DNA from: a virus
Virus record (IMG/VR): IMGVR_UViG_3300024344_000077
Coordinates: 1 to 31,132 of that record
Strand: one strand, 5' to 3'
DNA length: 31,132 nucleotides
In this document: positions 3 to 26,807 of the stretch, piece by piece
How the letters are laid out: each line of letters begins with the position of its first letter
Numbering within the stretch: the stretch's first letter is position 1
The notes under the pieces: model-generated
What the model saw: only the letters and a program-made list of their open reading frames with translations
What the model was told of the DNA's origin: nothing
The model's database searches: none
Translations under genes and position numbers: made by a program

Positions 3-620
3 GTATTTAATGGAAATCGTTTTGTTCCTAAAATACGAGTTTTTGCCGCAAGGGTTCAAAGTACTTCAGTAATTGACCCTATGCCATTAGGAACACAAGC
101 AGGAATTTTAGATACAGTATTTTCAGGGCATATTTTATTTGATGATGATAATATAGCAAAACCAGTTAAAAGATTTGATAGGAGAGGAAGAGGTAAATTT
201 TTAACTACTGAAACGCCAGTATTATCTCAATTTTCTAAACTTGCAAGTTTCAAATTAGAACCAGCATTAGTAGATGGTAAAGCTATTGAACCTCTACCTA
301 TATTTCATTGTGTATCTTATAAAGGACCTCGTGAAATTGGATTAGCCTCGCACTTACAACCACAATTTCCATGTATTGGTATTACTAGAGAAGAATCTGC
401 ATCTGGTGAAGTAAGAACATTTTTAACTTCGGGTTATATAACAGATGATAGTTTCACATTTACGGAACCCGCAGGATCAGCTTTATTTGTAGGACAAACG
501 GGAGAAATTGTTACTGCACCTCCACAAGTAATATCAATTCAACAAATAGGTGTAGTTGTTGATGCTAATACAATATTAGTATCAATTAACCCGCTAATAC
601 ATTACGAGGAGGTAATATAA
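3..620 (+). CDS. Virion structural protein, 5' end missing (partial)
   Basis: The frame is open from the left edge, so the first ATG at 81 is probably internal and the real start lies outside the window. About 205 residues are visible. The C-terminal part, with an SGEV element, a GQTGEIVT stretch followed by a QIGVVV strand and a final NP, resembles beta-rich domains common in phage tail and capsid-decoration proteins. This is recognised by pattern only. No catalytic motif is seen. The stop overlaps the next start by one base (TAATG), with a strong GAGGAGGT site at 606-613, so the two genes are translationally coupled. It is the first of a plus-strand row of small tail genes, which supports a structural role. 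The exact function is unknown. Confidence 0.6.
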   Translation, partial: VFNGNRFVPKIRVFAARVQSTSVIDPMPLGTQAGILDTVFSGHILFDDDNIAKPVKRFDRRGRGKFLTTETPVLSQFSKLASFKLEPALVDGKAIEPLPIFHCVSYKGPREIGLASHLQPQFPCIGITREESASGEVRTFLTSGYITDDSFTFTEPAGSALFVGQTGEIVTAPPQVISIQQIGVVVDANTILVSINPLIHYEEVI

Positions 621-916
621 TGGCTAATCTAGTACCCCTTCATATAGATAAACAAACTGGTAAAATTGTTGCCAGAGGCGGTGCGGGTGGTCCTAATTTC
701 GCTACTAAAGGATTTTTATATGAACAATTAATACCTAGTGACTTTTGGGTTATACCACATAACTGTGATTCTGATCAATTAATAGTACAAGTTTATGATA
801 TAACCGGCATGTTCATTTTACCAGATGAAATAGAAATAGTTAACACTAATACCGTACATATACGATTTAATGTACCTATACAAGGAACAGGTCACATAGC
901 ATTTTTTAGGACATAA
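620..916 (+). CDS. Small tail protein with one divergent HNLG module
   Basis: 98 residues. After about 27 residues including a Gly-rich RGGAGG loop, the rest aligns with the module repeated elsewhere in this window: a W-V-I-P-H-N core (WVIPHN), a VQVYD strand, a LPDEIEIVNTNTVHIRF strand pair, then a G-G-H-I end. The usual HNLG is HNCD here, making it the most divergent copy. The strong Shine-Dalgarno GAGGAGGT and the one-base overlap with the previous gene fix the start. In phages such modules sit at the ends of tail-fibre or baseplate proteins; a free-standing copy suggests a small virion subunit or adaptor. That role is inferred from the neighbours. Confidence 0.6.
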   Translation: MANLVPLHIDKQTGKIVARGGAGGPNFATKGFLYEQLIPSDFWVIPHNCDSDQLIVQVYDITGMFILPDEIEIVNTNTVHIRFNVPIQGTGHIAFFRT

Positions 917-928
917 AGGATAACACAT

Positions 929-1156
929 ATGGAATTAAAAACAACAGATATAATTTTAGCAGCAGTTTTAAGAATTAAGGGTTATGCACTAAATGATATA
1001 ATTATTGATAATAATAAAGGTATCTTTATATTTGTTGATATACCAGAAGAATTGATTACTGAATTTGATTTAGGTCAATCACTAGTTGAACCAGTTGAGT
1101 TTAATAATGCAATAAAAACATTAACAACTAGTGTCAGACGCATGAATAGAAATTAA
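929..1156 (+). CDS. Small conserved phage protein, DUF5659-like
   Basis: 75 residues, start supported by AAAGGA at 915-920. The pattern KTTDIILAAVLRIKGY, then a short beta pair (FIFVDIPEE), then an acidic segment and a helix (FNNAIKTLTTSVRRM) resembles the small DUF5659 family (KT-D-LAA-L-G) found in many phages. The function of that family is not known. The assignment is from memory of the pattern, not a search. It is the last plus-strand gene before the inserted endonuclease gene; its TAA overlaps the convergent stop of that gene, so the insertion lies immediately behind it. Confidence 0.5.
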   Translation: MELKTTDIILAAVLRIKGYALNDIIIDNNKGIFIFVDIPEELITEFDLGQSLVEPVEFNNAIKTLTTSVRRMNRN

Positions 1157-2823: not shown

Positions 2824-2873
2824 AATATATTATATCATCTCTGTATGTTTTAATCAAATTTTTTTAATTAAAG

Positions 2874-2881
2874 TATAAATA
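2874..2881 (+). promoter_or_regulatory. T4-type late promoter TATAAATA
   Basis: Exact T4 late octamer in the AT-rich gap between the inserted endonuclease gene and the large fibre gene, 72 nt before its ATG. In T4 this -10 element is read by gp55 with gp33 and the clamp. The octamer is not rare in such AT-rich DNA; its intergenic place before a virion gene is what supports the call. Confidence 0.5.
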
Positions 2882-2953
2882 GTAATTATAAAAAATAATA
2901 AAAAAAACATTTATGCATAAAACTTTTTTTAAAATTTAAAGGAGATTAAAAAT

Positions 2954-5900
2954 ATGGTAATTAATGGTAATTTAAAATTTCATACGGGTGGGTCTGGAGA
3001 ACTACAGCAAGCCCTTATGCAACGTTTTACGACAGTTGCTCGTGATGCGTTACTTGGTGGTGCTGAATTATACACTGGTCGTTTAATTTATAACACTACA
3101 ACAAACGAACTTAACTGGTATGATGGCACTGCATGGCGTGCTTTTGCTGGTATTGGTGTAGGTGCATTGCAATTTGAAGTAGATGCAATTGAAACTGCTT
3201 CTGGCGGCATATTTGATACAGATGGTACATATGTAGGATCTGTTCTTGATGCTGGTACTAACATCACTGCATCAACTAACCTTGCGAACGCAATCTTGCA
3301 GTTGGACACCGCGATTTCCGGTGCTGCTGGTGTTGATACGCTACCAGAATTGACTGACGTTGATTCAGCGTTGAATACGGGTATTGCTGATGGTGACTTG
3401 CTTCGTTATGACAGCGTTAATTCACAATGGGAAAAATCTGGATTTACTGCACTTGCAACTAATGACTTAATGCAATGGAACGGTACAAACTGGGTTAATG
3501 TAACACCATCAACTATTGGCGGTAATTCTTATGGTGCAGTAAATGCTGACTCTGGTTCTATTGCCGCAGCAAATACTTCTGATACGTTCGAAATTAAAAC
3601 TGCAACTAACGGTGGTATCGTAACTGCTGCAACATCACCTGGTACTGATTTAATCACTATCGCAATGAGTGTTGCTGGTTTAGCTGCTGGTACTACTTTA
3701 GTATTAGCTGATGAAATCGCTGTAAATGACGGTGGTTCTACTCTTCGTTATACCTTTACAGACATGGTTCAAGATTTGGATATTCCAAATGCAATTTCTG
3801 CTAATGGTTTAGTAACACGTACTGCTGCCGATACATATGCTTCACGTAGTATAACTGTTGATGGTGCTGGTGCACTTGATGGACTTGCTGTTACTAACGG
3901 TAATGGTGTTGCAGGAGATCCTACGATTGGTTTAGATATCAATGGTAATGTTGCTGTTTCAACTGGTGTTGCAGAAGTAACTACTATTGATTGTGCTGTA
4001 TCTTCTGGTATTGTTACTGGTGATTACTTCACACTTGATTCCCCAACAACTTCATATTATGTATGGTTTAATGTTGCTTCTGGTGGTGGTGATCCTGCAC
4101 CTGCTGGTAAAACTGCAATTCAAGTAAATGTTGCTTCAAATACTAACACTGTTGTTGCTGCCGCTGCATCTGCTGCTATTAATGGTTTTGGTGATTTTAA
4201 TACTGCTGATGGTCTACCACCTGTAGGTTTTACAGATTTCATCGTAACTAATGCCGCTGTTGGTGCTGTCACTGATGCTGCTGATGTTAATACAGGTCTT
4301 ACTATTACAGTAAATACACAAGGCGTTGATGCCGGTATCGCATCTGGTGATAAATTCATCGCATATGATATTGATGGTTTGGCTAATGTTAGCGTAACTC
4401 TTGCAGATATTAATAATGCTGTAATTAGCGATGGTATTGCACTTAACGACTTGTCTGATGTAGTTATTACTGCCGCTGCTAATGCTGATGTATTAATGCA
4501 TAACGGAACTTCATGGGTAGATACTGCTCCTGCTGCTGCACGTACTTCATTAGATGTTTATAGTAAAACTGAATCAGATACTAATTTTGTAGATGTTACT
4601 GGTGATACAATGACTGGTACATTGGCAATGGGAACAAATGTTATTACAATAACAAATGCACCTGTCGCTGATACTCAAGTTGCAAACAAAGCATATGTTG
4701 ATAGTTTGGTTAATGGTCTTTCTTGGAAAAATCCTGCCGAAGTTGCTACAACAGCTAACGTATCACTTACCGGTGAACAAACCATTGATGGTATATTAAC
4801 TTCTACGAGTAGAATCTTGGTTAAAGATCAAACTGCTCCGGCTGAAAATGGTATATATGTAACTGCTGCTGGTGCTTGGACACGTGCTACCGATATGGAT
4901 GCTGCTGCTGAATTTACCAATGCTACTATTTTTGTTAATACTGGTACTACACAAGCAGATACTTCTTGGACACAGGTAAATACTGTTGCTACTGTTGATA
5001 CTGATGCTGTTTCGTTTGTACAACAAAATGGTGCATCTGGTGTTGTTGCTGGTGCTGGTTTAGGTAAAACTGGAAATACTCTTAATGTAAACATGGGTGC
5101 TGGTATTATCGAATTACCTTCTGATGAAGTTGGTTTGGATTTCCATACCGGTGGTGGTATTTACACTTCTGCTACAGTAGGTGGTGTTGATGATACTACT
5201 ACTAACGCTCAGGTTGGTATCCGTATTGACGGAACAACTTTGTCACTTAGTAGTGCTGGTATTAAAGTTCCATTAAGTGGTATTACGGAAACAGAAATCG
5301 CAAGTACTGCACTTGGTAACGGTATACAAGGTGGTTCTGGTACAGTTCTTAGTTTGGACTTAGTTGCCGGTTCTGGTTTAGCGTTTACTGGTATTGAACT
5401 TGATTTAGTTTCTGTTCCAAATAGTGCATTAGCAAATAGTTCAATTACATTAGCTGCTGATTCTGGTGTTGCTGAAGTTGTATCATTAGGTCAAACATTA
5501 ACTGTTGCTGGTGGTACTAACATCGCATCTGTTGTTTCTGCAACTGATACAGTTACTTTAAATTGGTCTGCTGCTCTTACTGATTTAAGTGATGTAATTA
5601 TTACTGCTGCTGCAACTAACGATGTAATTCAGTTCAACGGAACCAATTGGGTCGATGTAACACCTGCTACATTAGTAAGCACGGTGAATACTGAAGATTT
5701 GGCTGATATTACTGCTGGCGGTACTGCAAGTGGTCAGGTATTAGTAACTGGAACAACTCCATTTAACTATACACCTAGTCAGATTCACTTTGTACATGAT
5801 CATACAACATCTGCTACTTCATGGACTGTAACCCATAACTTGGGTCAGAAGTTTGTGAATGTAACAGTATATGATAGTACGGATAATGTTATTATTCCAC

Positions 5901-6010
5901 AAACTATCGTTGCAACAAGTACAACTGTAACAACAATTACTTTTAATACTGCAATCACTGGTACTGCGGTTATTACTGGTGTTGCTGGTGCAGCGAGTGA
6001 AACTGTATAA
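2954..6010 (+). CDS. Large tail fibre protein (1018 aa)
   Basis: Clear AAAGGAG site at 2938-2944. The N-terminus has a fibre-type GRLIYNTTTNELNWYDGTAW segment. At least three copies follow of a DLSDV-x10-NDV-QFNGTNWVDVTP motif (around residues 170, 507 and 880), a typical fibre repeat. A TMTGTLAMG...QVANKAYVD linker known from T4 gp12/gp37-like fibres comes next, then the common phage SWKNPAEVATTANVSLTG / RILVKDQTAPAENGIYV domain near 635-710. The C-terminal 65 residues are one HNLG module (SWTVTHNLG). Composition is Ala/Thr/Val/Gly-rich with almost no Cys, as expected for trimeric beta fibres. It likely forms a tail fibre or baseplate spike that meets the host surface. It follows a late-type promoter and ends at a strong hairpin. 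Confidence 0.85.
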   Translation: MVINGNLKFHTGGSGELQQALMQRFTTVARDALLGGAELYTGRLIYNTTTNELNWYDGTAWRAFAGIGVGALQFEVDAIETASGGIFDTDGTYVGSVLDAGTNITASTNLANAILQLDTAISGAAGVDTLPELTDVDSALNTGIADGDLLRYDSVNSQWEKSGFTALATNDLMQWNGTNWVNVTPSTIGGNSYGAVNADSGSIAAANTSDTFEIKTATNGGIVTAATSPGTDLITIAMSVAGLAAGTTLVLADEIAVNDGGSTLRYTFTDMVQDLDIPNAISANGLVTRTAADTYASRSITVDGAGALDGLAVTNGNGVAGDPTIGLDINGNVAVSTGVAEVTTIDCAVSSGIVTGDYFTLDSPTTSYYVWFNVASGGGDPAPAGKTAIQVNVASNTNTVVAAAASAAINGFGDFNTADGLPPVGFTDFIVTNAAVGAVTDAADVNTGLTITVNTQGVDAGIASGDKFIAYDIDGLANVSVTLADINNAVISDGIALNDLSDVVITAAANADVLMHNGTSWVDTAPAAARTSLDVYSKTESDTNFVDVTGDTMTGTLAMGTNVITITNAPVADTQVANKAYVDSLVNGLSWKNPAEVATTANVSLTGEQTIDGILTSTSRILVKDQTAPAENGIYVTAAGAWTRATDMDAAAEFTNATIFVNTGTTQADTSWTQVNTVATVDTDAVSFVQQNGASGVVAGAGLGKTGNTLNVNMGAGIIELPSDEVGLDFHTGGGIYTSATVGGVDDTTTNAQVGIRIDGTTLSLSSAGIKVPLSGITETEIASTALGNGIQGGSGTVLSLDLVAGSGLAFTGIELDLVSVPNSALANSSITLAADSGVAEVVSLGQTLTVAGGTNIASVVSATDTVTLNWSAALTDLSDVIITAAATNDVIQFNGTNWVDVTPATLVSTVNTEDLADITAGGTASGQVLVTGTTPFNYTPSQIHFVHDHTTSATSWTVTHNLGQKFVNVTVYDSTDNVIIPQTIVATSTTVTTITFNTAITGTAVITGVAGAASETV

Positions 6011-6025
6011 TACAGTAAATAAATT

Positions 6026-6050
6026 AAATGGGGGCTTTTGGCCCCCATTT
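6026..6050 (+). terminator. Hairpin terminator behind the large fibre gene
   Basis: Ten-base perfect arms AAATGGGGGC / GCCCCCATTT with a 5-nt loop, 16 nt after the stop. It is by far the most GC-rich spot nearby. The 3' U-tract is short (ATTT), so termination may be partial and allow read-through into the next tail genes. Confidence 0.75.
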
Positions 6051-6076
6051 GACTACTTTATAAAGGGAGTTTATAT

Positions 6077-6724
6077 ATGAAGTTTCATGGAGATGTAGAT
6101 TTTGCAAGTGCTGAATCAGCATTAGGACAAATAAAACAACCAGGTATTGGTCTTGAAACATCTTTCCCCGAATCACCCATTGTAGGTCGTATCGTTTTTG
6201 TAAGTGAACAAGTATGGATTTGTGTTGCCTTGTCAACGGGTATCCCAGTTTGGGTTCCAATGACAAATAAAAGAGATACACATGTTCATACACAAAGTTC
6301 GACATCAGCAACTTGGGCAATCGCCCATAATTTGAATACAGTTAATCCTATTGTTCAAATTTACGATGATACGACACAAAAATTAATCATACCCGATGAT
6401 GTTGCTATTGTAGACAATAACAATGTTACAGCTACTTTTAGCATATCCTTAACTGGACGTGCTATTGTAATGTATGGTGATCCTACTATTGGTGTTGTGG
6501 AAGGAGCATTAGTTCTTCAACCAGATCAAGTAACGTTTACTCATACGCAATCAGTTGGAAGTACTGCGTGGGTTGTTACACACAACTTAGGTTACTACCC
6601 AATTACTAGAGTATTCTTATCAACTGATGTAGAAATTCAACCACTTTCAATAGTGCATGATTCTATCTTTCAGACAACAATTTCATTTAGCAGTGCTCAA
6701 ACGGGCCGTGCTAAGTTTGTATAA
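6077..6724 (+). CDS. Tail protein with two HNLG modules
   Basis: 215 residues, start supported by AAAGGGAG. Residues 1-70 (MKFHGDVDFASAESALGQI ... GRIVFVSEQVWICVA) form a fibre-type head segment of the sort that begins many tail fibres. Two HNLG modules follow: residues about 71-138 (ATWAIAHNLN, IPDDVAIVDNNNVTATF, TGRAIV) and about 150-215 (AWVVTHNLG, TGRAKFV). The tandem copies differ clearly, so the duplication is old. It lies in one operon with the following single-module genes (gaps of 11 nt). A virion role at the fibre or baseplate is inferred from domain type and place. Confidence 0.75.
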   Translation: MKFHGDVDFASAESALGQIKQPGIGLETSFPESPIVGRIVFVSEQVWICVALSTGIPVWVPMTNKRDTHVHTQSSTSATWAIAHNLNTVNPIVQIYDDTTQKLIIPDDVAIVDNNNVTATFSISLTGRAIVMYGDPTIGVVEGALVLQPDQVTFTHTQSVGSTAWVVTHNLGYYPITRVFLSTDVEIQPLSIVHDSIFQTTISFSSAQTGRAKFV

Positions 6725-6735
6725 GGAGATAAACA

Positions 6736-6960
6736 ATGGCTATAGAATCATTTACGGCTTTTGAACACACGCAAGCGGTTGCTTCTACAACTTGGACGAT
6801 TACCCATAGTTTAGGGACAAAAACGCCTGTAGTTGATTGTTGGGTTGATATTTTAGGTACGGATACAAAAATTATGCCTGATACAGTTACGGCTACTAGT
6901 ACAACAGTTGTAACTATAACATTTTCTACTGCATATGCAGGTAGAGCTTTAGTCGTATAA
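6736..6960 (+). CDS. Single HNLG-module protein (74 aa)
   Basis: The whole protein is one HNLG module: FEHTQAVASTTWTITHSLG, a V-D-C-W-V-D strand, IMPDTVTATSTTVVTITF and an AGRALVV end. TAAGGAGAT at 6723-6731 gives a strong start. A stand-alone copy of a domain normally found at the C-terminus of fibres suggests it is either a separate subunit binding to a fibre or a module cut loose by gene splitting. No other motif is seen. Confidence 0.7.
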   Translation: MAIESFTAFEHTQAVASTTWTITHSLGTKTPVVDCWVDILGTDTKIMPDTVTATSTTVVTITFSTAYAGRALVV

Positions 6961-6971
6961 AGGAGATAATA

Positions 6972-7187
6972 ATGGCTGAATATAATCATTTACAATCAGT
7001 AAGTTCTGCTTCATGGGTAATATCTCATAATTTGGCGGCTACTACAATTGATACGGATGCATTTATTGATGTTTCCGGTAGTTTAACTAAAGTTCTTCCG
7101 CTAAATGTGGTTCATACAGATAATAATACGTTAACAGTAACATTTTCTGCGAATCAAGTTGGTAGAGTACGAATTGTGTCGATTTAA
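6972..7187 (+). CDS. Single HNLG-module protein (71 aa)
   Basis: Another one-module protein: YNHLQSVSSASWVISHNLA, a TDAFIDVSGS strand, VLPLNVVHTDNNTLTVTF and a VGRVRIV end. AAAGGAGAT at 6960-6968 supports the start. It is closest in form to the preceding 74-residue protein and to the second module of the 215-residue protein, so the three genes probably arose by tandem duplication. The role in the virion is inferred only. Confidence 0.7.
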   Translation: MAEYNHLQSVSSASWVISHNLAATTIDTDAFIDVSGSLTKVLPLNVVHTDNNTLTVTFSANQVGRVRIVSI

Positions 7188-7200: not shown

Positions 7201-7578
7201 ATGTTAATGGATACAATCCAATTTATTCAAGATTCTGACTGGAATTATGATATTGCTGGTTCAACACTTTCAAAACCTACTGATGGTGCAGTCCTTAGTC
7301 GTTTTCGTTGTACACGTGCAATGAAAATCCCTACTAATGCTAATGGAAGTACAATGAGTAGTGAAGTAGCAACAACAGGAATAACAACATACTTGTTAAA
7401 GAAAAACTCTGTTCAATTTGGAACATGTGCATTCTCTGCTGCGGCGAATGCCAGTGTATTCACTGTAACTGAAACATCGTTTGCAATTGATGATGAATTT
7501 ACTGTCGAAGCACCTGCTACTGCCGATGCAACACATGATCAAATTTCATGGACAATAACTACACGCTATACCACATAA
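7201..7578 (+). CDS. Small virion protein, unrecognised (125 aa)
   Basis: The start at 7201 is chosen because of AAAGGGGAG ten bases upstream and because an upstream extension would overlap the previous gene. The protein is beta-rich, Thr/Ala/Ser-rich, with one Cys near residue 36 and one in the middle, and no HNLG core. It reads like a short fibre-tip or decoration protein (FIQDSDWNYDIAG at the start, ISWTITTRYTT at the end). It is the last gene of the tail operon before a large hairpin and an endonuclease gene. Function not recognised. Confidence 0.6.
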   Translation: MLMDTIQFIQDSDWNYDIAGSTLSKPTDGAVLSRFRCTRAMKIPTNANGSTMSSEVATTGITTYLLKKNSVQFGTCAFSAAANASVFTVTETSFAIDDEFTVEAPATADATHDQISWTITTRYTT

Positions 7579-7635: not shown

Positions 7636-7717
7636 ATTATGTATATTAAAAATATAAAAACTTGTAGAAGAAAAGCTTCAATGTAAGCATTTGCCTTTAC
7701 CAGAATGCAATTCCGAA

Positions 7718-8815
7718 ATGAAAAAATTAACAACTAATGAATTTGTAACTAACGCAAATAATATTCATGATGGCAAATATAAATATCCCGATGAATATAT
7801 TAACGCTAGAACTAAAATTAAAATTATTTGTCCCATACATGGCGATTTTCATCAAATACCTAATAAACATATAAAAGGATATGGTTGTTCTAAATGTTCC
7901 AATAAACATAAACCAACAACAAAAGAATTTATTCAACAAGCAAATAATATTCATGATGGCAAATATAAATATCCCGATGAATATGTTAATAATAAAACTA
8001 AAATAAAAATTATTTGTCCCATACATGGCGAATTTTGTCAAACACCTAGTAATCACTTACGGGGGTCGGGATGCAAAAAATGTGTATTTAAATATTCTAA
8101 TTTGAATAATATAACATTTCAAATACTTGCACATAATGTACATAATAATAAATATGTGTATTCTAATGATTATATAAACAGTTATACATTAATATCTATA
8201 AAATGTCCTATTCATGGATATTTCAAACAATTACCTAGAACTCATTTAAAAGGAAGTGGCTGTTTAAAATGCATACAATTAAAACAAAAATCAAATGCAT
8301 CTGAAAATTTTAAAATAAATGCTAGAAAAATACATGGTGATAAATACGAATATATAGATGATTATATATCATCAAATAAAAAAATTAATATAATATGTAA
8401 AAAACATGGAATATTTAAACAACGCCCCGGATATCATATAAACAAACAAACTAATTGCCCTTTATGTTCATATAAAAATTACTCAAAACAGGCAATATGT
8501 TGGTTAAACGAGATAAGTAAAAAAGAAAATATTCATATTCAACATGCAGAGAATGGTGGTGAATATTATATACCAACAACAAATTATAAAGCAGATGGTT
8601 ATTGTGAAGCCAATAATACAATTTATGAATTTTATGGTGATATTTGGCATGGCAATTTAAATATATTTAACGAAAATGAAGTACCCAGACCTTTTTTAAA
8701 AATGTCTGCTGGAAGTTTATATATGAAAACCATGCAACGTGAACAAGAAATAAAAAACTTGGGTTATAATTTAATTACTATTTGGGAAAATGATTTTATC
8801 AAAAGTTATAAATAA
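7718..8815 (+). CDS. Homing endonuclease-like protein, DUF723-type repeats plus Vsr-like nuclease
   Basis: The ATG at 7718 is preferred to the TTG at 7691 because it aligns with the start of the paralogue at 20142-21392 (MKKLTTNEF versus MKILTNEEF). About 365 residues. Four repeats of roughly 50-58 residues (F-x-x-x-A-N-x-I-H-D-G-K-Y-x-Y, I-x-C-P-I-H-G-x-F, H-L-x-G-S-G-C-x-K-C) are Cys/His-containing DNA-binding units of DUF723 type. The last 100 residues (WLNEI, HAENGGEYYIPTTNYKADGY, YEFYGDIWHGN, TIWENDF) form a Vsr-like nuclease. The gene sits between tail genes. No good Shine-Dalgarno is seen; the palindrome upstream may control it. The last 9 bases carry a late-type octamer used by, or inherited from, the next gene. 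Confidence 0.8.
   Translation: MKKLTTNEFVTNANNIHDGKYKYPDEYINARTKIKIICPIHGDFHQIPNKHIKGYGCSKCSNKHKPTTKEFIQQANNIHDGKYKYPDEYVNNKTKIKIICPIHGEFCQTPSNHLRGSGCKKCVFKYSNLNNITFQILAHNVHNNKYVYSNDYINSYTLISIKCPIHGYFKQLPRTHLKGSGCLKCIQLKQKSNASENFKINARKIHGDKYEYIDDYISSNKKINIICKKHGIFKQRPGYHINKQTNCPLCSYKNYSKQAICWLNEISKKENIHIQHAENGGEYYIPTTNYKADGYCEANNTIYEFYGDIWHGNLNIFNENEVPRPFLKMSAGSLYMKTMQREQEIKNLGYNLITIWENDFIKSYK
8807..8814 (+). promoter_or_regulatory. Late-type octamer in the stop codon of the endonuclease gene
   Basis: TATAAATA overlaps the Tyr-Lys-stop end of the endonuclease gene. It ends only 5 nt before the ATG at 8820, so a transcript from it would be almost leaderless. It could serve a later start or be fortuitous. 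Confidence 0.3.
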
Positions 8816-10291: not shown

Positions 10292-11326
10292 TTAAAATTC
10301 TGCATCTGCTGTCCAATGATATATATATCGGAATGCACCACCATTCAATGCACTATGAATTACTGTGCCGAAAAGTTTTGTATTTCCTTGTGTAATTCCT
10401 AATGCTGTACGATTTGAACCCCCAGAATCATTTTCTGTAACTGTATTAGGTGTATTAGGTGTTATTGTAGAATATACTGTTCGTGTGGGAAAAATACGTT
10501 TGGGTGTTGCATATACTGGTGATTGAAATTGTACAAGTGCTGTATTTGGTTGACTAGATAAATAAGGAAATCCATCTGTTACAACTGATCCAATAGCTAT
10601 ATTTTCATCATATGATTTTTCATAATATCGTTGACATAATGATAATTCTATACCAAAACTACGTAAATCAAAATCTGATGCTATCCCGCCACTTTCTATT
10701 TGAACTTGTGCAATATCAAAAATACCCGATTGTTGTCCTAATGCATTAGTTCTTGCATCATTATCAGATCCAGATTCAAACCAAAATACTAGTTGCAAAA
10801 AATTATCATTGTTAGTTCCTATCATTTTTCCTGCTATTGATGGTATATTAATAGTCGTAGTAAATTTTTGCCAATTTGTTGTCAAAGCATGTGTTGTTAC
10901 CCCAATACCTGTTACAGTAGTAGATGGTGTACCACCAGTCCCAAATTCTTGTCTTAAATCAGATGCTATGTTTTTCGGTACGTCTGCTTTGGCATAAAAT
11001 GATAAAGTAATTGTATTACCTGCATGTGTAGAAACATCTTCAATTCCAGTTAATAATGATGCATAATTCCCTGTACCTACTACAGACGTTACAACACTTC
11101 TATGAAAATATTTTGCATTTTGTATATCGCCTAATATTATAGATTCACGCGTTGGTATTATTGTTGTCCCAACACTTTCATTCCCCCATCTATCTGATAA
11201 ATATCGTGTACCAGTTCCAGCAATTAAACTAGTCCCTCTTTGCCATATATCAAAATTCCCATTAATTATAATGTTCTTAGTAGTTTGCTTATTTGCATAA
11301 TCTGAAAGTTCTCTTGATTTTGTCAT
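10292..11326 (-). CDS. Tail fibre / carbohydrate-binding-like protein, inverted paralogue
   Basis: 344 residues with AAAGGA before the ATG. Residues about 18-32 (IIINGNFDIWQRGTS) start a jelly-roll-like phage tail module that continues through RYLSDRWGNES, TLSFYAKAD, TTHALTTNWQKFT, GIFDIAQVQIESG and LCQRYYEKSYDEN to about residue 235. Related phage modules are thought to bind glycans. The last 100 residues are the variable tip, ending in HWTADAEF. It lacks the long N-terminal shaft of the 555-residue paralogue and starts like the gene at 30607 (MTKSREL versus MTKAREL). It is the only intact fibre gene on the minus strand. Directly upstream is the remnant of another copy with the same gene-end/start junction as the plus-strand cluster. 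Confidence 0.8.
   Translation of the reverse strand: MTKSRELSDYANKQTTKNIIINGNFDIWQRGTSLIAGTGTRYLSDRWGNESVGTTIIPTRESIILGDIQNAKYFHRSVVTSVVGTGNYASLLTGIEDVSTHAGNTITLSFYAKADVPKNIASDLRQEFGTGGTPSTTVTGIGVTTHALTTNWQKFTTTINIPSIAGKMIGTNNDNFLQLVFWFESGSDNDARTNALGQQSGIFDIAQVQIESGGIASDFDLRSFGIELSLCQRYYEKSYDENIAIGSVVTDGFPYLSSQPNTALVQFQSPVYATPKRIFPTRTVYSTITPNTPNTVTENDSGGSNRTALGITQGNTKLFGTVIHSALNGGAFRYIYHWTADAEF
11235..11265 (-). repeat. 31-nt inverted repeat shared with the plus-strand fibre gene at 29634
   Basis: On the minus strand this stretch, encoding the INGNFDIWQRG core, matches 29634-29664 on the plus strand at 29 of 31 bases by eye. The copies are inverted and about 18.4 kb apart, so they are a possible site for recombination between fibre genes. 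Confidence 0.75.
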
Positions 11327-12125: not shown

Positions 12126-12386
12126 TTATCCTGCGTTTACATCACCGGAACCTGTAGCAGTATGTCCACATGATGCATTATCTCCCTGTCTACATACAAA
12201 TTTACCGCCAGCTTTAACGGTTCCAGATGAACCTATCATTGTTGCATTAGTGTGTGGACCAGAATCATGTGATGTAACTGAATCGTTTTTGACGATAATT
12301 GATTGATTATTGACCTTAATCGTTGTTACTGTGGCGATTAAAGAACCACCGGCATTATCTATTGTGTCTCTACTTATCCCAGGCAT
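12126..12386 (-). CDS. PAAR-type spike tip protein
   Basis: 86 residues with AGGAG before the ATG. MPGISRDT, the central VNNQSIIVKNDSVTSHDSGPH strand set and the C-terminal RQGDNASCGHTATGS are the classic PAAR repeat pattern. In T4 the PAAR protein gp5.4 caps the gp5 needle; in the family a few His/Cys residues (here H40, H45, C65, C73, H75 are candidates) bind a metal ion at the tip. It would form the sharp end of the contractile tail's cell-puncturing device. A CATAAATA late-type box sits 31 nt upstream. Confidence 0.9.
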   Translation of the reverse strand: MPGISRDTIDNAGGSLIATVTTIKVNNQSIIVKNDSVTSHDSGPHTNATMIGSSGTVKAGGKFVCRQGDNASCGHTATGSGDVNAG

Positions 12387-14836: not shown

Positions 14837-16024
14837 TTATATGTTAAATAAATCATTATCCAATAATTGGGGTTCTGATTTTGATTTTTTTGATTTTTTT
14901 ATGGTTTTATTTTCTATTCCATCTATACTTAATAAATCATCTTCCATTAATAATTGCTTTGAAGGTACTACTAAGTTCGCTGGATCTAATATTGATCGTA
15001 GCGGTTTATTGACTAAAACTTCTATTTGCCTATTTACATCAACTAAAGGTTTAAAATCCTGAATAAACCAATTAGGTATTTCTTCTATATCTGTAGGTAT
15101 TGCTATGCTATTAAAACGTTCAAAATTTTTGATTAAATAGAATACGCGTATTTTCATACCAGATGTTATTTTTGGACTAGCATTATCTTTATATTCTTCT
15201 CGAACTTTATTGTAAAAAATTGAAGCAGCAACATGTCCAGGTAAGTTAGTTTTATTATCCAATGCATACAATTCAGAATACATATCCATATTTTTAACAC
15301 CAATGGGTTTACCTAGCATTAAAACATTTTTTGTATCAAACTTTTTTAATTCTTCTATATATGCAACAACATCTCTCTTAGTTTCATCCCAATCTTCACC
15401 TGATAATAATTTTTTTACAAATCCTGTAAGTTTAATTGCGATTTCTTTAGGTATAGTAGTTCTTTTTAATGCAATACCCATCATCTTAAGTTTTTCACAT
15501 GCAACGCCTTCATTATTAATAATAAATCCAAGATACATTTTCTTTTTAATGTATATTGCCTTAGACGCTACAATTTCACGTGCTGCTTGGATTTTATTAT
15601 TATACCCATCTGGCAATAAAAATGTTTCACGCATAAATTCTTGAAATGTTTCATTTACTTCTTTTCCAACTGCATCAGCGATTAGAATTGCATCATTTTT
15701 ATTATCGGCATATGTTTTAAAGTATGAACTATCAGTATCACCTGCTACTAGAGCATCGCCTTTATAGTCATAAATATCATTCAATAATTTATTAACCATA
15801 GCTGATTGATGTTTAATAATAATACGTCCGGTTCCCGTTGTACTACTACCAAGTCGCATATCATAAAACTTAAAAAACGCATTTAACAAAGCACCATATA
15901 AACTATTAAGACGTATTTTGTATACATATTGAATACGATCATAATAGTTTGCTTGTTGTATTAATTCATCGTATCGTTTTGCATCTTCATCTGATATTTT
16001 AATATTATTTCTTATTTGTGTCAT
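14837..16024 (-). CDS. 43B: DNA polymerase, C-terminal part (palm/fingers/thumb)
   Basis: 395 residues. Motif B (KIRLNSLYGALLN, residues 36-48) and motif C (AGDTDSSYF, catalytic D96 and D98) are intact, as is the downstream region KLKMMGIALKR. The final LLDNDLFNI resembles the hydrophobic clamp-binding peptide at the end of T4/RB69 gp43. Motif A and the exonuclease are missing because they are on the separate gene 16212-17777. Together 521+395 residues equal a full gp43 (898 in T4), so both parts probably assemble into one enzyme. Split gp43 genes with the cut between motifs A and B are known from Aeromonas T4-like phages. The ATG overlaps the end of a small membrane-protein gene. Confidence 0.9.
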   Translation of the reverse strand: MTQIRNNIKISDEDAKRYDELIQQANYYDRIQYVYKIRLNSLYGALLNAFFKFYDMRLGSSTTGTGRIIIKHQSAMVNKLLNDIYDYKGDALVAGDTDSSYFKTYADNKNDAILIADAVGKEVNETFQEFMRETFLLPDGYNNKIQAAREIVASKAIYIKKKMYLGFIINNEGVACEKLKMMGIALKRTTIPKEIAIKLTGFVKKLLSGEDWDETKRDVVAYIEELKKFDTKNVLMLGKPIGVKNMDMYSELYALDNKTNLPGHVAASIFYNKVREEYKDNASPKITSGMKIRVFYLIKNFERFNSIAIPTDIEEIPNWFIQDFKPLVDVNRQIEVLVNKPLRSILDPANLVVPSKQLLMEDDLLSIDGIENKTIKKSKKSKSEPQLLDNDLFNI

Positions 16025-16178
16025 CTGATTTTAAATATCCTATAGCCTGACTTTTTATTAACCACCCATGATTCATAAAAAATTGACCAAAAATAAGGAT
16101 AAGAAAAAATATGCATCCACACAAACCTAGAAATATAAATGTACTACCTTCTTTAATTTTTGAAAAATATCTACCCAT
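16005..16178 (-). CDS. 57-residue single-pass membrane protein inside the split polymerase locus
   Basis: An intact frame from ATG at 16178 to TAA at 16005, overlapping the start of the polymerase C-part by 20 bases in another frame. One strong hydrophobic helix covers residues about 13-34 (TFIFLGLCGCIFFLILIFGQ), preceded by a basic MGRYFSKIK and followed by a polar tail ending in DDTNKK. A GGAG lies 13 nt upstream and an exact late octamer 34 nt upstream. The hydrophobic pattern and the promoter argue that it is a real gene and not random spacer. No homologue is recognised. It might be a lysis or superinfection factor, or simply a passenger of the event that split the polymerase. Confidence 0.6.
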   Translation of the reverse strand: MGRYFSKIKEGSTFIFLGLCGCIFFLILIFGQFFMNHGWLIKSQAIGYLKSDDTNKK

Positions 16179-16211
16179 GATAAAATAAAATCTCCATAAT
16201 AAGAACAGTAA

Positions 16212-17777
16212 TTATTTATATTTTTCTAAGATTTTTTGTGCTTCTTTATAGCATCTTTTTCCTTCGCCTTTATATTCTTTTCTCATAGCAAACCATTCCT
16301 CAAGAATCATAGGAATAATGCCTTTTTCTTTGAGATCGAAAACTGTTCCATAACCACTTATAGACCAGTTTAATTCTAAAAGTTCTTCCCGCCATTCTTT
16401 CGCAGATTTTGTATATTCTATGCCATTTTTTTCTAATACAAGAGTTAGTTCTGTATCAGACTGTTGTTTAATTAAATCTACAGACTCTACAGTTTCTTTA
16501 AATTGTCCGCGTAATGTTTCTGGGCTGGCGTTTACGCTCATAATAGCACTAGGATACAGGCTTGTTATATCAATACTACCTATCCAATCATAAAACCCCG
16601 GAATTGTATCTAATACATATGCACCTTCGGCTCTATCACCATCTTTATTTTCATCATTATCTGGTAAAATCAAATTGTGTTTGTGTAAACAAAAATTCCT
16701 AATTACAATTTCAGCAATTCTAACTGTACCTAATAAATGACTCCATTGGCAACATGATAAATGACAAATTTGATTTGCCAATTCCATATATCCTAATTCT
16801 TCTTCAAATGCTTTAAGAATTTCAGTATCACGAATGTTATATCTAACAAAATATGCAAAATCTTTTACATATAATTTTGCTAATGATCCTTCATATTCTA
16901 ATTTTGGTAATTTATCACCTAATTCTTCTTCTGCAATAGATTCAAGTTTAAAAGATTGTTTTTCTGATGGATCATATTTTTTATATAATTCCAAATAATC
17001 AGAGTTTATTCTACCACCCCAATCTACTAATATAGAAGTACTACCATATTTTTTATCAATTACTTCACGAAACTTAACTGATTTAAATGATTCCTTAAAT
17101 GATAATTCTTTAAGAGCATGTTTACCACATGTTTTTTCTATACGTTTTGTAATATACGGATCATCAAACCGAGAACTATTCCAGCCAGACAGTAAATCAC
17201 TATCTTCTATTTCCGTTAAAAAATATTTTAATAACTCTTTTTCTGTGTTAAAAATATGAATATCAATATTCATATCTTCTGGTAATGGAACCTTTTCGTT
17301 AACTGCTTCCAGAAGTGTTTCTGAATTCCAATCCTGTCCGTCTGGTGGAACTGCTAGAAGGACAAACTTTTTATTCCATGTATGATATAAGGATATTGAA
17401 TTAATTGGTGCATACGGGTTCTCAATGCTTGCATGACCTATTTCCATATCATAATCATTCTCGATATCATAAAAGGTCACATGCAACTTTGGTGCAGTAA
17501 CTTCATTATATTTATCTGAAAGAATTTTCAACTCGGGTGATACATCTCCATCAAATATTTCATTTGCTTGAAATAATGCTTTTGCATCCACCATTTCCTT
17601 ATTAGTGCTGAATTCATGTTTTATTAATGCATCGCCAAATAAGCTTTTATATTCACCATTTCTGTTCTTGGTATAAAAATAAAATGGTGCTGAATATTCT
17701 TTAAAAATTCTTCCTTCTTCGGTTCTTTCCCAAACTAATACTTTATCACCTTTACGTTCTGTACTAATATATGACAT
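16212..17777 (-). CDS. 43A: DNA polymerase, N-terminal part (exonuclease and start of palm)
   Basis: 521 residues. The 3'-5' exonuclease motifs are Exo I FYDIEND (D104, E106), Exo II GWNSSRFDDPYI (D205 or D206) and Exo III VRYNIRDTEI (D317). Polymerase motif A is SIDITSLYPSAI (D403). The protein ends in the fingers region (KEYKGEGKRCYKEAQKIL), before motif B, which is on the next gene. The break sits at the tip of a long helical hairpin, where separate chains can still pack. It starts inside the stop of the upstream small gene (TAATG), with GAGA as ribosome site, so the two are coupled and share the promoter at 18109. Confidence 0.92.
   Translation of the reverse strand: MSYISTERKGDKVLVWERTEEGRIFKEYSAPFYFYTKNRNGEYKSLFGDALIKHEFSTNKEMVDAKALFQANEIFDGDVSPELKILSDKYNEVTAPKLHVTFYDIENDYDMEIGHASIENPYAPINSISLYHTWNKKFVLLAVPPDGQDWNSETLLEAVNEKVPLPEDMNIDIHIFNTEKELLKYFLTEIEDSDLLSGWNSSRFDDPYITKRIEKTCGKHALKELSFKESFKSVKFREVIDKKYGSTSILVDWGGRINSDYLELYKKYDPSEKQSFKLESIAEEELGDKLPKLEYEGSLAKLYVKDFAYFVRYNIRDTEILKAFEEELGYMELANQICHLSCCQWSHLLGTVRIAEIVIRNFCLHKHNLILPDNDENKDGDRAEGAYVLDTIPGFYDWIGSIDITSLYPSAIMSVNASPETLRGQFKETVESVDLIKQQSDTELTLVLEKNGIEYTKSAKEWREELLELNWSISGYGTVFDLKEKGIIPMILEEWFAMRKEYKGEGKRCYKEAQKILEKYK
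16213..16220 (-). promoter_or_regulatory. Late-type octamer in the stop codon of the polymerase N-part
   Basis: TATAAATA overlaps the Tyr-Lys-stop end of the gene at 16212-17777 and lies 34 nt before the ATG of the small membrane protein. It would give late transcription of that gene and of the polymerase C-part. Confidence 0.5.
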
Positions 17778-18925: not shown

Positions 18926-19555
18926 TCATGCAAATTTTTCAAACCATTGTGTATAATTGCCAGGAAAATTTTCTGGTACATATGTAAAAGGTAATAATCC
19001 GGCCAAATGAAATCTTACTTGAAATAATTCACCAGCTTCTATTATACTTGTATTGTTAATAAAATGTGGTCCAGATGGAAAAATAATCATAGTTCCTAAT
19101 TGTGGATTAAATCCAAATTTAAAATTATAGAACTCTAATTTCCCACCATAAACTTCAAAATCACCATCAAATGGTAATTTATCACGATAATCTGATAAAA
19201 ACAATATTGCTGTTAAATCACGATCTTTAGTTCTAGCCCATTTTTTACTAACATAAGAACTATTTTCACAATGTGGCTCTTCACCTGCACAACCTTCTGG
19301 GAACCATTCAAAATGCATTGGTTCTGTTCCACGATAATTGAAAGAAAAATACTCCTCTATATCTTTCAATTTTGGTGACAATTTCTCAAATATCACTGCT
19401 TCCATATGTTCATTCATCTTTTCAGATTTTATGGGTTTATCATCCTCACTTACATCGGGGTATATGAAATTAACTTTATCTACAATTTCGCCACATAATT
19501 TTGGCGATAAGAAATTTTGATACACCATAAATGGTGAGTGTATTTTATTATTCAT
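18926..19555 (-). CDS. 2-oxoglutarate/Fe(II)-dependent oxygenase-like protein
   Basis: 209 residues, AGGATA before the ATG. The layout is that of phage prolyl-4-hydroxylase-like oxygenases: NFLSPKLCGEIVD at the start, HCENSSY with H95 and E97 as the first iron ligands (H-x-D/E), ILFLSDY, then FPSGPHFINN with H164 as the distal histidine and FQVRFHLAG with R181 as the likely 2-oxoglutarate anchor. Glu instead of Asp in H-x-D is tolerated in some members but should be noted. Such enzymes are frequent in marine T4-like phages; substrates are unknown (protein side chains or nucleic acid). An AATAAATA box lies 31 nt upstream. Confidence 0.75.
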   Translation of the reverse strand: MNNKIHSPFMVYQNFLSPKLCGEIVDKVNFIYPDVSEDDKPIKSEKMNEHMEAVIFEKLSPKLKDIEEYFSFNYRGTEPMHFEWFPEGCAGEEPHCENSSYVSKKWARTKDRDLTAILFLSDYRDKLPFDGDFEVYGGKLEFYNFKFGFNPQLGTMIIFPSGPHFINNTSIIEAGELFQVRFHLAGLLPFTYVPENFPGNYTQWFEKFA

Positions 19556-19586: not shown

Positions 19587-19594
19587 TATTTATT
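19587..19594 (-). promoter_or_regulatory. Late-like box AATAAATA before the oxygenase gene
   Basis: One-base variant of the late octamer overlapping the stop of the previous gene, 31 nt before the ATG at 19555. The spacing fits the other late boxes; the sequence alone would be weak. Confidence 0.35.
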
Positions 19595-20117
19595 CTTTTA
19601 AAATATCAGCAAATGAAATATCATGTTCTTTAATCAAGTCTCTTATTTCTTGAATAGCAAACACACGTTTATCAACTATTTCTATTTTGTTATCAGATTT
19701 TTCGCTAATTGATACATGAAAGCCTCCTTTCTTTAAGGTAGATTTACCTATAAGAACCTTATGTTCCATCGTATCTCGATTATTAAGATTGAACTCTTGA
19801 TTGTTCATTTCTTTTCCATTAAGCGTAATATCCATTTTTACAACAGGACGACTTTCGGTTTGACCATCGCTGTTCCTAACTTGAATCCACGTTGCTTCCA
19901 TCGTAACAACATTATCACATAAAGCTTCACATTTAAATGCCACACGCCCATGCTCTAATGCTTTCCATTGATCTGCGTGTAAAGAGTTCATCGTAGCACC
20001 GGTATCCATTTTTGCGGGAACTTTAGCGTTAAACTGGCGGAATTCTACTGCTGCTTTATCAGGAATGACTGATGATTTGTTATTTGTAATTTCTTCGTTT
20101 TCTTCTTCGTAATTCAT
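19590..20117 (-). CDS. Retropepsin-like / RimB-type protease-fold protein
   Basis: 175 residues, AGGAGAA before the ATG. AKMDTGATMNSLHA (D38-T39-G40-A41) is the active-site loop of the aspartic-protease-like family that includes the RimB or 'ATP-dependent zinc protease' proteins. A VAFKCE strand, KMDITLNGK and HKVLIGKSTLKKGGFHV with the family's L-I-G turn follow. In bacteria some of these act with RimK-type ligases; phage copies have no settled role. An exact late octamer 25 nt upstream suggests late expression, so processing of a virion protein is possible. The substrate is unknown. Confidence 0.75.
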   Translation of the reverse strand: MNYEEENEEITNNKSSVIPDKAAVEFRQFNAKVPAKMDTGATMNSLHADQWKALEHGRVAFKCEALCDNVVTMEATWIQVRNSDGQTESRPVVKMDITLNGKEMNNQEFNLNNRDTMEHKVLIGKSTLKKGGFHVSISEKSDNKIEIVDKRVFAIQEIRDLIKEHDISFADILKE

Positions 20118-20141: not shown

Positions 20142-21392
20142 TTATTTATAATTATTTTCCCAAATAGTAATTAAATTATATCCTAATTTTTTTATTTCTC
20201 GTTCGCGTTGCATTGTTTTCATATACAATGCACCAGCACATTCTTTTAAAAATGGTCTAATAATTTCATCTGCATCAAATAAATCAAGATTGCCATGCCA
20301 AATATCTCCGTAAAACTCGTATATAGTATTATTCTCTTTACAATATCCATCAGCTTTATATTTTGTTCCTGGTATCCTATACTCACCATCATTTTCCGCA
20401 TGTTGAATATTAATATTTTCTTTTTTGGCTATTTCATTTAACCAGGATATTGCTTTTTGTGAATAAGTTGATTTTGCACATTCTGGACATCTGGTTTTTT
20501 TATTAATATGATCACTAGGACGTTGATAAAATTCTCCATGTTCGGGACAAATAATTCTTATTTTAGTTTTCGAATTTACATATTTATCAGGGTATTCATA
20601 TTTACCATGAATTATATTAGATTTTTCTGCAAATTTATGTAATACTAGGCATTTAGGACAGCCATTTTTTTTATTAATATGATCACTAGGACGTTGATAA
20701 AATTCACCATGTTCGGGACAAATAATTCTTATTTTAGTTTTCGAATTTACATATTTATCAGGATATTCATACTCATTATGAACTATATTTGCTTTTTGTA
20801 TAAATTCATTCGTGGAATATTTATATTTTTTAGAACATTTTGGACATTTCCCGCCAGATAAATGATATGAAGGAATTTGATTAAAAATGCCATGGATGGC
20901 ACATATTATTGAAACAGGATGTTTTGTATCAATATAAGTTATTGATGAATAATCGTATGAATTATTATGTATTACATTTGATTTTTTTATGAAATCTTTT
21001 TTATTTAATATATTTTTACCAGAACATTTACGGCATTGTTGTTTTTTAGTAACATGTGCGTTGGGTGTTTGTTCAAATACACCATGTATAGGACATTTAA
21101 TTTTTATTTTAGTATGGGCATTAACATATTCAGAAATATATTCATATTTTCCATTATGAATTTTGTTTGCTTCACTAATAAATTCTTTTGTTGTTTTTTT
21201 GTTGCAATTTTTACATTTAGAACATCCTTGACCTTTTAAATGTAACACAGGTGTTTGTTCAAATATACCATGTATAGGACATTTGATTTTTACTTTTATT
21301 TTGGATGTTTTATATGGCGTTATATATAAAAATTTATTATTATGAATTTTATTTGCACGTTTTACAAATTCTTCATTTGTTAATATTTTCAT
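20142..21392 (-). CDS. Homing endonuclease-like protein, DUF723-type repeats plus Vsr-like nuclease
   Basis: 416 residues, paralogue of 7718-8815. Five DUF723-type repeats (I-H-x-x-x-Y-x-Y ... I-x-C-P-x-H-G-x-F-x-Q ... H-x-x-x-x-C-x-K-C) cover residues 1-305. The last 105 residues are the Vsr-like nuclease (KAISWLNEIAKKENINIQHAE, YKADGYC, YEFYGDIWHGN, LITIWENNYK). It is nearly the same in the paralogue, whereas the repeat number differs (five versus four). The start overlaps the exonuclease gene by 20 bases and lacks a good ribosome site. It is inserted between a DNA exonuclease gene and a late gene. Confidence 0.8.
   Translation of the reverse strand: MKILTNEEFVKRANKIHNNKFLYITPYKTSKIKVKIKCPIHGIFEQTPVLHLKGQGCSKCKNCNKKTTKEFISEANKIHNGKYEYISEYVNAHTKIKIKCPIHGVFEQTPNAHVTKKQQCRKCSGKNILNKKDFIKKSNVIHNNSYDYSSITYIDTKHPVSIICAIHGIFNQIPSYHLSGGKCPKCSKKYKYSTNEFIQKANIVHNEYEYPDKYVNSKTKIRIICPEHGEFYQRPSDHINKKNGCPKCLVLHKFAEKSNIIHGKYEYPDKYVNSKTKIRIICPEHGEFYQRPSDHINKKTRCPECAKSTYSQKAISWLNEIAKKENINIQHAENDGEYRIPGTKYKADGYCKENNTIYEFYGDIWHGNLDLFDADEIIRPFLKECAGALYMKTMQREREIKKLGYNLITIWENNYK
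20143..20150 (-). promoter_or_regulatory. Late-type octamer in the stop codon of the upstream endonuclease gene
   Basis: TATAAATA formed by the Tyr-Lys-stop end of the gene at 20142-21392, 25 nt before the ATG at 20117. Confidence 0.5.
20501..20762 (-). repeat. Two near-identical 91-nt direct repeats in the endonuclease gene
   Basis: 20501-20591 and 20672-20762 differ at one base by eye, with a period of 171 nt, and encode the fourth and fifth DUF723 units. This implies very recent unit duplication or gene conversion. Confidence 0.8.
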
Positions 21393-23582: not shown

Positions 23583-23608
23583 AATACAATTCCTTTATTT
23601 ATTTAGTG

Positions 23609-23616: not shown

Positions 23617-23618
23617 AA

Positions 23619-23640
23619 AAAGTCCCAATAAAGGGACTTT
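23619..23640 (-). terminator. Intrinsic terminator of the gene at 23659
   Basis: On the minus strand AAAGTCCC-TTTATT-GGGACTTT forms an 8-bp stem with a 6-nt loop followed by a run of T residues, 18 nt after the stop. Confidence 0.85.
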
Positions 23641-23658
23641 CTTATTGTATTATACTCT

Positions 23659-23961: not shown

Positions 23962-24003
23962 ATAAACCCTTTTAGTTTAAAATAAGTATCTCGTCCTGTG
24001 AGG

Positions 24004-24312
24004 TTATTCCGTTTCTTCAGTATCAGGATCAGGCAAATCAACAACTTCATCAAGTGATGATTCTTCTTTTCCTTCTTCTGTCGTATCAGCAGGTGGGTTT
24101 AAATGATCTTTTACCTTTTGTGCTAATTCAGCACCAAGACGACTCATAGCATATTGTGCACGTAAAAATTCGCTTTTTGTTTCGAGTTCTTTGACACGCC
24201 ATTCGTCATACAATTCTACAATTGCTTGTATTTCTGTTGGCAAATCATCAATGTTAATACTAGTATCTTCGTCGATGTTTATCGTTTTGGTTGGCGTAAA
24301 ACTTTTAATCAT
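24004..24312 (-). CDS. Small protein with helical pair, DUF6447-like (102 aa)
   Basis: GAGGAG before the ATG. The strand INIDEDTSINIDDLP is followed by two helices (TEIQAIVELYDEWRVKELETKSEFLRAQYAMSRLGAEL) and an acidic, disordered tail ending in DPDTEETE. The order 'short strand - DDLP - helix - helix' resembles small phage proteins grouped as DUF6447, for which no function is known; this is a weak resemblance. It lies in the helicase transcription unit. Confidence 0.5.
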   Translation of the reverse strand: MIKSFTPTKTINIDEDTSINIDDLPTEIQAIVELYDEWRVKELETKSEFLRAQYAMSRLGAELAQKVKDHLNPPADTTEEGKEESSLDEVVDLPDPDTEETE

Positions 24313-24345
24313 TATAATCTCCTCTATTGTTATTATTATATTGCT

Positions 24346-25698: not shown

Positions 25699-25708
25699 AT
25701 ATCTCCTT

Positions 25709-25744
25709 TATGTGAATTATAGCATATCCACATAAGAAAAACAA
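25709..25744 (-). promoter_or_regulatory. Sigma70-type promoter of the helicase gene with palindrome over the -10 box
   Basis: Minus strand: -35 TTGTTT (25739-25744), 17-nt spacer, -10 TATAAT (25716-25721) with upstream TGC giving an extended -10. The inverted repeat TTATGTG / CACATAA (25709-25715, 25729-25735) encloses the -10 box and is a good operator candidate. Confidence 0.7.
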
Positions 25745-25757
25745 TATTTTTTATTTT

Positions 25758-26807
25758 TTAAATTTCTTTGATATGTGGAAATACAGACCGTTGGAGGGTT
25801 TTAAAACCAAAAAGTTCCCGTGTATCATAAAAAAATGAAAGTTCTGAATTTGTTGCATCGACATCGCTAATATCTATAAAACTATCAAGAATTTTATCGA
25901 CATTGGCATAGGGATCTTTTGCTAATAAAATCAACATGTCATTTTGTGCAAAGTTTGTTATGGTAGTTGTACCATCAGTCAAAGAAGTGAAATAGAAGGA
26001 AGAACCATTTTGTATTATGCCGTTTCGCATTTCTGAAATAAGTGCAGAAAAACTGCGAACTGTATAAAATCTACCACGAATAGTTATTTCTCCGAAATCA
26101 GTCCACGGCGAAGTGACTGAGGCGGAACCAATATTTTGATATGTATGAGAAATATTTGCTGAGGGCGAAATATATTCCAGCCCAACATTTACAGGAACTA
26201 CTGGGTTAATTTTTTCATTTAATGTGGCAATAGTTAACTCTGCTTCAAACGTCGGATTATCCGATATTTCGGTATTAGTTAACTGGATTATACTTGATTC
26301 TTCCTCTATTACATCATCTTCAATATCTAGTGCAGAGGAGCGAGCGATTAATTGTGCAATTCCTGATTGTAATTCATCAAATCGAATTAAAATTTCATTT
26401 CGGTTAATGATTTCTATACTTGCAGGTGTATCTTCTACTAAAATAGTACCACCTGTTTCGCCACGACTTTCACATGGTATTTCTGTTATATCGCCTATAA
26501 TTATAGATTTTTCTACTAAAACTTGTACAGATGGAAATACACCTAAATTATGAACTATTCTCCATTCTGTCGCGGCTATTGTTTGTGTATGATTATATAA
26601 AATGCGTCTTGGTGACCAATCAGCCAGACCATTCACAGCAGGAGGAAATTCACCACGAATGAAATCATCTTTCTTTTCAATGCGATTCATGAATCCTCTA
26701 CATCCATCTGTTATAATGCAACGACTAATAATTTCTAAACCGCCCTTTTTTTCGGGAAGTTCAATTTCTCGTTTACAAACCGTGCATTCAAAGCGTATTA
26801 TAGCCAT
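25758..26807 (-). CDS. Zinc-ribbon plus HNLG-module virion protein (349 aa)
   Basis: AGGAAAAA before the ATG. The N-terminus has CTVC (C8, C11) and a second Cys pair, CIITDGC (C30, C36), likely a zinc ribbon. An HNLG module with a long inserted loop follows at about 70-165 (YNHTQTIAATEWRIVHNLG, then IEIINRNEILIRF and SGIAQLIA). The rest (about 180-349) is a beta-rich part with DFGEITIRGRFYTVRSFSALISEM and a C-terminal RELFGFKTLQRSVFPHIK, not recognised. It is the only HNLG protein on the minus strand. A CATAAATA box 23 nt upstream agrees with a late virion protein; the zinc ribbon is unusual for a fibre and may serve assembly. Confidence 0.6.
   Translation of the reverse strand: MAIIRFECTVCKREIELPEKKGGLEIISRCIITDGCRGFMNRIEKKDDFIRGEFPPAVNGLADWSPRRILYNHTQTIAATEWRIVHNLGVFPSVQVLVEKSIIIGDITEIPCESRGETGGTILVEDTPASIEIINRNEILIRFDELQSGIAQLIARSSALDIEDDVIEEESSIIQLTNTEISDNPTFEAELTIATLNEKINPVVPVNVGLEYISPSANISHTYQNIGSASVTSPWTDFGEITIRGRFYTVRSFSALISEMRNGIIQNGSSFYFTSLTDGTTTITNFAQNDMLILLAKDPYANVDKILDSFIDISDVDATNSELSFFYDTRELFGFKTLQRSVFPHIKEI

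Follow-up and report, generated by a model that had tools for sequence, protein, structure and literature searches.

The locus analysed here raises the question of why a phage should encode free copies of the domain that ends its own long fibre. An earlier note on the window (the whole stretch of DNA that was analysed, 31,132 nucleotides of an IMG/VR virus record) had described seven copies of a small beta domain, the HNLG module, several of them as one-domain genes, and had proposed either an exchangeable set of tip subunits or a module which is duplicated and re-attached to different carriers.

The copies were first of all real. A profile built from the module copies of PaBG, NCTB and pEa_SNUABM_5 only, with the window left out, recovered all seven at the places given before (Table 1), with E values of the module proteins from 1e-37 to 7e-11, while the best E across 50 sets of shuffled window ORFs was 5.2e-4. 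When the 74-aa protein was used as an independent query against the window, the same seven places and none besides were returned. The copies matched the profile significantly over the ~65-aa module with its conserved H, P and G columns, and the motif W-x-[IV]-x-H-N-L-G was correct as the signature of the module. Six of the seven copies were full-length. The copy said to lie behind a zinc ribbon in the 349-aa protein was present but split by an insertion, and a 316-aa ortholog of this protein, also with a module, was found in the record of the relative L014 (E 3.8e-24). The copy in the 98-aa protein had been called divergent, which agreed with its long branch in the module tree but not with its profile match, which was not weak. 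Since the window is a virus record of 31 kb and possibly a fragment, the genome has at least seven.

Table 1. Genes of the window that carry the HNLG module or lie next to such genes (E without further label, leave-window-out module profile).
Feature	Position	Strand	Domains, matches and signals
179-aa protein	81..620	+	phrog_4368 and phrog_30025 match it and also the central part of the 422-aa protein of L014
98-aa one-domain gene	620..916	+	module ~701-907; Shine-Dalgarno gaggagg; E 3.7e-17
1018-aa long fibre	2954..6010	+	N-terminal attachment domain ~2954-3151; shaft; C-terminal HNLG module ~5777-5983; E 2.2e-17 (C-terminus)
215-aa 'mini-fibre'	6077..6724	+	fibre-type N-terminal domain ~6077-6271; modules ~6269-6478 and ~6524-6721; E 1e-37 (two copies, E of the protein)
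74-aa stand-alone module, first of two	6736..6960	+	E 2.8e-24; Shine-Dalgarno; AlphaFold2 model
71-aa stand-alone module, second of two	6972..7187	+	E 4.8e-18; Shine-Dalgarno; module tree
gene after the 71-aa module, ~125 aa from ATG 7201	7201..7578	+	phrog_22757 E 1.8e-10; phmmer from PaBG gp260
349-aa protein	25758..26807	-	N-terminal CxxC zinc-ribbon-like segment; module ~26340-26606 with ~20-aa insertion; E 6.8e-11

Three of the module genes were free-standing one-domain genes as claimed, each with a Shine-Dalgarno site a few bases upstream (gaggaggtaatataATG before the gene at 620, aaggagataaacaATG before the gene at 6736 and aaaggagataataATG before the gene at 6972). The TAATG in which the 98-aa gene starts also contains the stop codon of the 179-aa gene, and these two genes correspond to a single 422-aa gene in L014. 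The long fibre matched phrog_16122 (virion structural) and phrog_11518 (tail fiber). The gene behind the 71-aa module has a Shine-Dalgarno site of its own (aaaggggag) and matched only the C-terminal part of the ~190-aa phrog_22757 protein. A perfect 10-bp hairpin (6026-6050, aaatgggggc-ttttg-gcccccattt), which may be a terminator or a site of processing, was seen by eye in the stretch that separates the fibre gene from the two-module gene. The word TATAAATA of T4 late promoters was not enriched and did not occur just before 6077, so no late promoter is claimed.

The module was modelled as one small beta-sandwich. With 106 module sequences, AlphaFold2 gave the 74-aa protein a five-strand single domain at high confidence (pLDDT 95.5, pTM 0.80). 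For the 215-aa protein (pLDDT 84, pTM 0.46) both modules were predicted well, with an uncertain placement of the domains relative to each other. Foldseek returned no significant match among solved structures for the single-module or the two-module model. The best resemblances, weak and non-significant, were to CBM32 domains and the fibre end of T7 gp17, which is a point for the reading of the small proteins as tips. Among predicted viral proteins there were 58 Foldseek matches at E <= 0.001, from many phages and often of single-module length; the module is therefore common in phages, without a solved close relative. Pfam and NCBIfam held no usable model for it, and sequence searches of the PDB gave chance matches only. 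Matches of the 71-aa protein to filamin and aspartase fell below the cut-off and were dismissed.

PHROGs already holds the families of this cassette, mostly unnamed: phrog_21918 for the two-module protein (200 aa), phrog_28944 for the stand-alone module (73 aa), phrog_16122 for the fibre (526 aa), phrog_24148 for an upstream ~270-aa protein and phrog_22757 for the following ~190-aa protein. They are the same proteins, but their function is absent or doubtful there and they are not connected as one module set. The phrog_24148 proteins (L009:5148-5957, L008:6954-7775) are conserved tail-region proteins of ~270 aa whose C-terminus is an HNLG module, and the label 'HNH endonuclease' of this family is likely a misannotation.

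The most suggestive anatomical fact, absent from the earlier note, concerned the other end of the 215-aa protein. Its first 60 residues align with the first 66 of the long fibre (hhalign probability 95.5, E 1.5e-8, 52 columns), while a reversed-profile decoy gave E 0.2. With the profile of the two-module N-termini, the fibre N-terminus was missed in a single-sequence search and found by profile-profile comparison. An N-terminal domain homologous to that of the fibre, followed by two end modules and no shaft, makes this protein a shaftless 'mini-fibre'. Its site of attachment could be that of the fibre itself or lie along the fibre.

The cassette was widely distributed. Orthologs of the 215-aa protein were found by tblastn in PaBG, NCTB, fHe-Yen9-02 and some 50 records of Erwinia and Dickeya jumbo phages, mostly near full-length, and their neighbourhoods contained, in the order of the window, a fibre of 500-1000 aa with the module at its end, a two-module protein of ~200 aa, a stand-alone module of ~73 aa and a protein of ~190 aa. 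The order fibre, two-module and stand-alone gene was kept in all 28 loci that were treed (window 2954-7187 and 27 others, including PaBG, NCTB and Alexandravirus/Rivsvirus jumbo phages), and a second module gene came next in line in 15 of them, the window included. Proteins of ~270-630 aa encoded upstream also carried the module. A scan of IMG/VR with a 7-sequence alignment gave 63 further loci; a scan with only the 215-aa protein as query confirmed none. Some of the Erwinia jumbo phages have a ~310-aa gene, with no Pfam match, between the two-module and stand-alone genes (L013:9022-9954, and the matching gap between these genes in L029, L030, L038-L041, L043 and L047).

The module set was thus not special to one phage, since 5 to 9 copies were present in all 20 relatives searched whole (5 or 6 in six named phages, 6 to 9 in 14 IMG/VR records) and PHROGs holds the two-module and single-module families. 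A pattern scan of 84,980 bacterial and archaeal genomes gave a single distant one-module match only, so the module looks like a phage family. Literature searches gave no description of the module set and, as far as could be found, none of a fibre that is accompanied by its own shaftless homolog and by its end domain in free copies. This composition is unusual; otherwise the cassette is an ordinary conserved structural gene set.

Two phage groups with different replication genes share the cassette. The DNA polymerase of the window is of T4 type; its N-terminal part had no match in PaBG, pEa_SNUABM_5 or NCTB, and was matched in nine IMG/VR relatives with the cassette. The window therefore lies outside the PaBG/Alexandravirus group as defined by the same replication genes as PaBG. 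This polymerase was observed in two reading frames (14837-17777, minus strand; 521 aa and 395 aa, ~190 bases apart), and in most cassette-bearing relatives it is one open frame over the matched part. Smaller and more distant phage contigs (L055, L056, L057, L062, L070-L076), about nine distinct loci, have a small module gene (71-242 aa) with, directly behind it, a gene that has a module near its end, so the pair of small module and fibre may be of general occurrence.

A tree of 159 modules grouped them by cassette position, not by phage, although it was built on only 70 columns and its deep forks were not resolved. The 28 fibre copies formed one clade and the two copies of the two-module protein formed two nearly pure groups; position labels needed 14 changes on the tree, compared with 103.5 in shuffles. 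As the copies cluster by position and not by genome, sequence comparison indicates old, fixed paralogs with a common ancestry. Most single stand-alone genes of PaBG-type phages grouped with the 71-aa gene, which makes the 74-aa gene the additional one, and its type was found in relatives with two stand-alone genes. The tandem of stand-alone genes, the single family of free and fused modules and the link to the fibre C-terminus, all proposed before, were borne out. Re-attachment to different carriers was also found, as an occasional event: in L015 the second stand-alone module forms the N-terminal end of a 589-aa protein, and in L021 that of a 218-aa protein, another fusion is that of L014, and two further genes of L016 consist of the N-terminal domain and one module.

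The idea of exchangeable tips fared differently. According to it, the stand-alone and two-module proteins would be host-specificity tips, namely alternative receptor-binding subunits on the fibre end, and the module does form the end of the fibre, as well as that of many further phage tail proteins. T-even phages are known to have small tip adhesins, for example gp38; in the T4 gp37/gp38-type tip, the gene of a small protein follows directly on that of the long fibre, and this protein is regarded as sitting on the end of the fibre. But gp38 of PP01 and its relatives is a variable receptor binder which is not homologous to its fibre, whereas the free proteins of the window type are conserved and have their homolog in the end of the fibre itself. 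When related phages were compared with Dickeya phage AD1, their fibre, two-module, stand-alone and upstream module proteins were as similar as the neighbouring core genes, while genes 088-091 just downstream were often missing or unrecognisable. The stand-alone protein was identical in AD1 and Erwinia phage pEa_SNUABM_33 (L032). Median dN/dS was 0.14 for the stand-alone gene and 0.11 for the two-module gene, rough values with dS near saturation, which indicate purifying selection on the cassette modules. The faster evolution or exchange relative to neighbouring structural genes that marks a gp38-type gene was thus not seen in the cassette. Position-specific orthology in the 28 loci, core-like conservation beside variable neighbours and the identical Dickeya/Erwinia module argue together against exchangeable host-range tips, which we consider quite improbable.

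The small proteins could instead be fibre assembly chaperones, which would bind the C-terminal modules during folding or trimerisation and be absent from the finished virion. Their genes always lie directly behind the fibre gene, and chaperone-assisted fibre assembly, said to be common, is reportedly used by Pam3. In PaBG, whose tail region gp252-gp263 is an orthologous cassette, MALDI-TOF of gel bands identified the fibre ortholog gp257 and its neighbours gp261 and gp263 as virion proteins, and the computed mass of gp257 (57,162 Da) agreed with the 57,163 listed in the table (PMC7412058). The two-module gp258 (22 kDa) and the stand-alone gp259 (8 kDa, the only one in PaBG as compared with two in the window) were not among the 14 identified bands of this list (PMC7412058), and the modules are not described in the available text of the paper. 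The gel was, according to the same text, a Coomassie-stained 10% gel, from which an 8-kDa protein would be lost; the absence of gp258 from the band list is a real, if weak, point for chaperones. On the other side, a fibre-type N-terminal domain on the two-module protein is more typical of an incorporated part, and homology to both ends of the client is not usual for a free chaperone. A role as chaperones is judged unlikely.

The module might also be a generic beta-sandwich with unrelated jobs in baseplate, collar and fibre end, the stand-alone copies forming a separate structure such as 'hairs'. Its occurrence in the zinc-ribbon-like protein and in the upstream ~270-630 aa proteins would fit this, and hairs are reported on AD1-type phages, with their proteins not known (PMC6143709). 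However, the constant gene order after the fibre, together with the domain that these proteins have in common with it, speaks for a joint function. Nothing was found that links the module to hairs, and the accessible account of PaBG morphology mentions none, although PaBG has the cassette. We regard this explanation as very improbable.

An analogy is offered by XD2/XD3 of CBA120 TSP4 and T4 gp10, small beta-jellyroll domains which act as trimer docking joints (PMC8825819). Like them (XD ~60-70 aa; PMC8825819), HNLG modules are small, all-beta, tandem-repeated and found in tail proteins; XD domains sit at the N-terminal side of spikes, unlike HNLG modules, which are C-terminal or free. The N-terminal part of TSP4 was the top Foldseek match of the two-module model, though not a significant one (E 0.03, probability 0.66), and TSP4 was not among the matches listed in the single-module fold search. 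No sequence relation to TSP4 appeared when the module alignment was compared with its residues 1-336 by hhalign (probability 1.5%). The identity with XD2/XD3 expected from the sequence layout of TSP4 was supported neither by the profile comparison nor by the single-module fold search, so it was kept as an analogy only.

Several other genes were annotated in the window. Three paralogous tail-fibre proteins of phrog_4492 (10292-11326, minus strand; 27743-28918 and 28928-30595, plus strand) have a common C-terminal part of ~300 aa beginning NGNFDIWQRGTS, with a weak CBM_4_9 match in one, and are candidates for variable receptor-binding fibres outside the module set. Repeated zinc-finger-like segments were seen in three further genes (1153-2823, minus; 7691-8815, plus; 20142-21392, minus), with matches to DUF7487, CapR and DUF4379; two of these genes have a common C-terminal part (KADGYC.ENNTIYEFYGDIWHGN-like). 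They resemble mobile endonucleases that have inserted around the fibre cassette and at other places. The minus strand also encodes a PAAR-like protein (12126-12386), whose match was slightly under the Pfam cut-off, a 2OG-Fe(II) oxygenase-like protein (18926-19555) and a putative ATP-dependent zinc/aspartyl protease-like protein (19590-20117).

The ordered set is thus probably a fixed building kit of the host-attachment apparatus, and not a pool of swappable tips. The cassette proteins may be assembly subunits of a multi-protein fibre complex, with the HNLG module as assembly joint in this phage group, a reading to which we give a probability of about 0.5. Such a complex would be carried in the virion and consist of the long fibre ending in a module, the mini-fibre with the same attachment domain and two modules, and one or two free modules. 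Contacts between modules would link the free and two-module proteins with the ends of the fibre or with one another, and the joined modules would form a fixed cap or hub, which would stabilise the fibre end or hold variable adhesins encoded just downstream. The host-specific parts would then be supplied by the variable neighbouring genes.

A tentative and rather unlikely refinement concerns the stoichiometry. If the complex is built on one repeated joint and the fibre is a trimer ended by three modules, the mini-fibre and one free module (2 + 1 = 3) could make a matching pseudo-threefold cap at its tip. In that case the single-domain proteins would be separate 'plug' subunits of the fibre end, and the second free module would be a further, different plug.

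At least five unnamed phage protein families thereby become one connected set with a testable role. In a wide group of jumbo phages, the fibre region has a conserved core of module proteins beside a variable part, and the variable genes, which likely encode host range, are thus separated from the shared scaffold.
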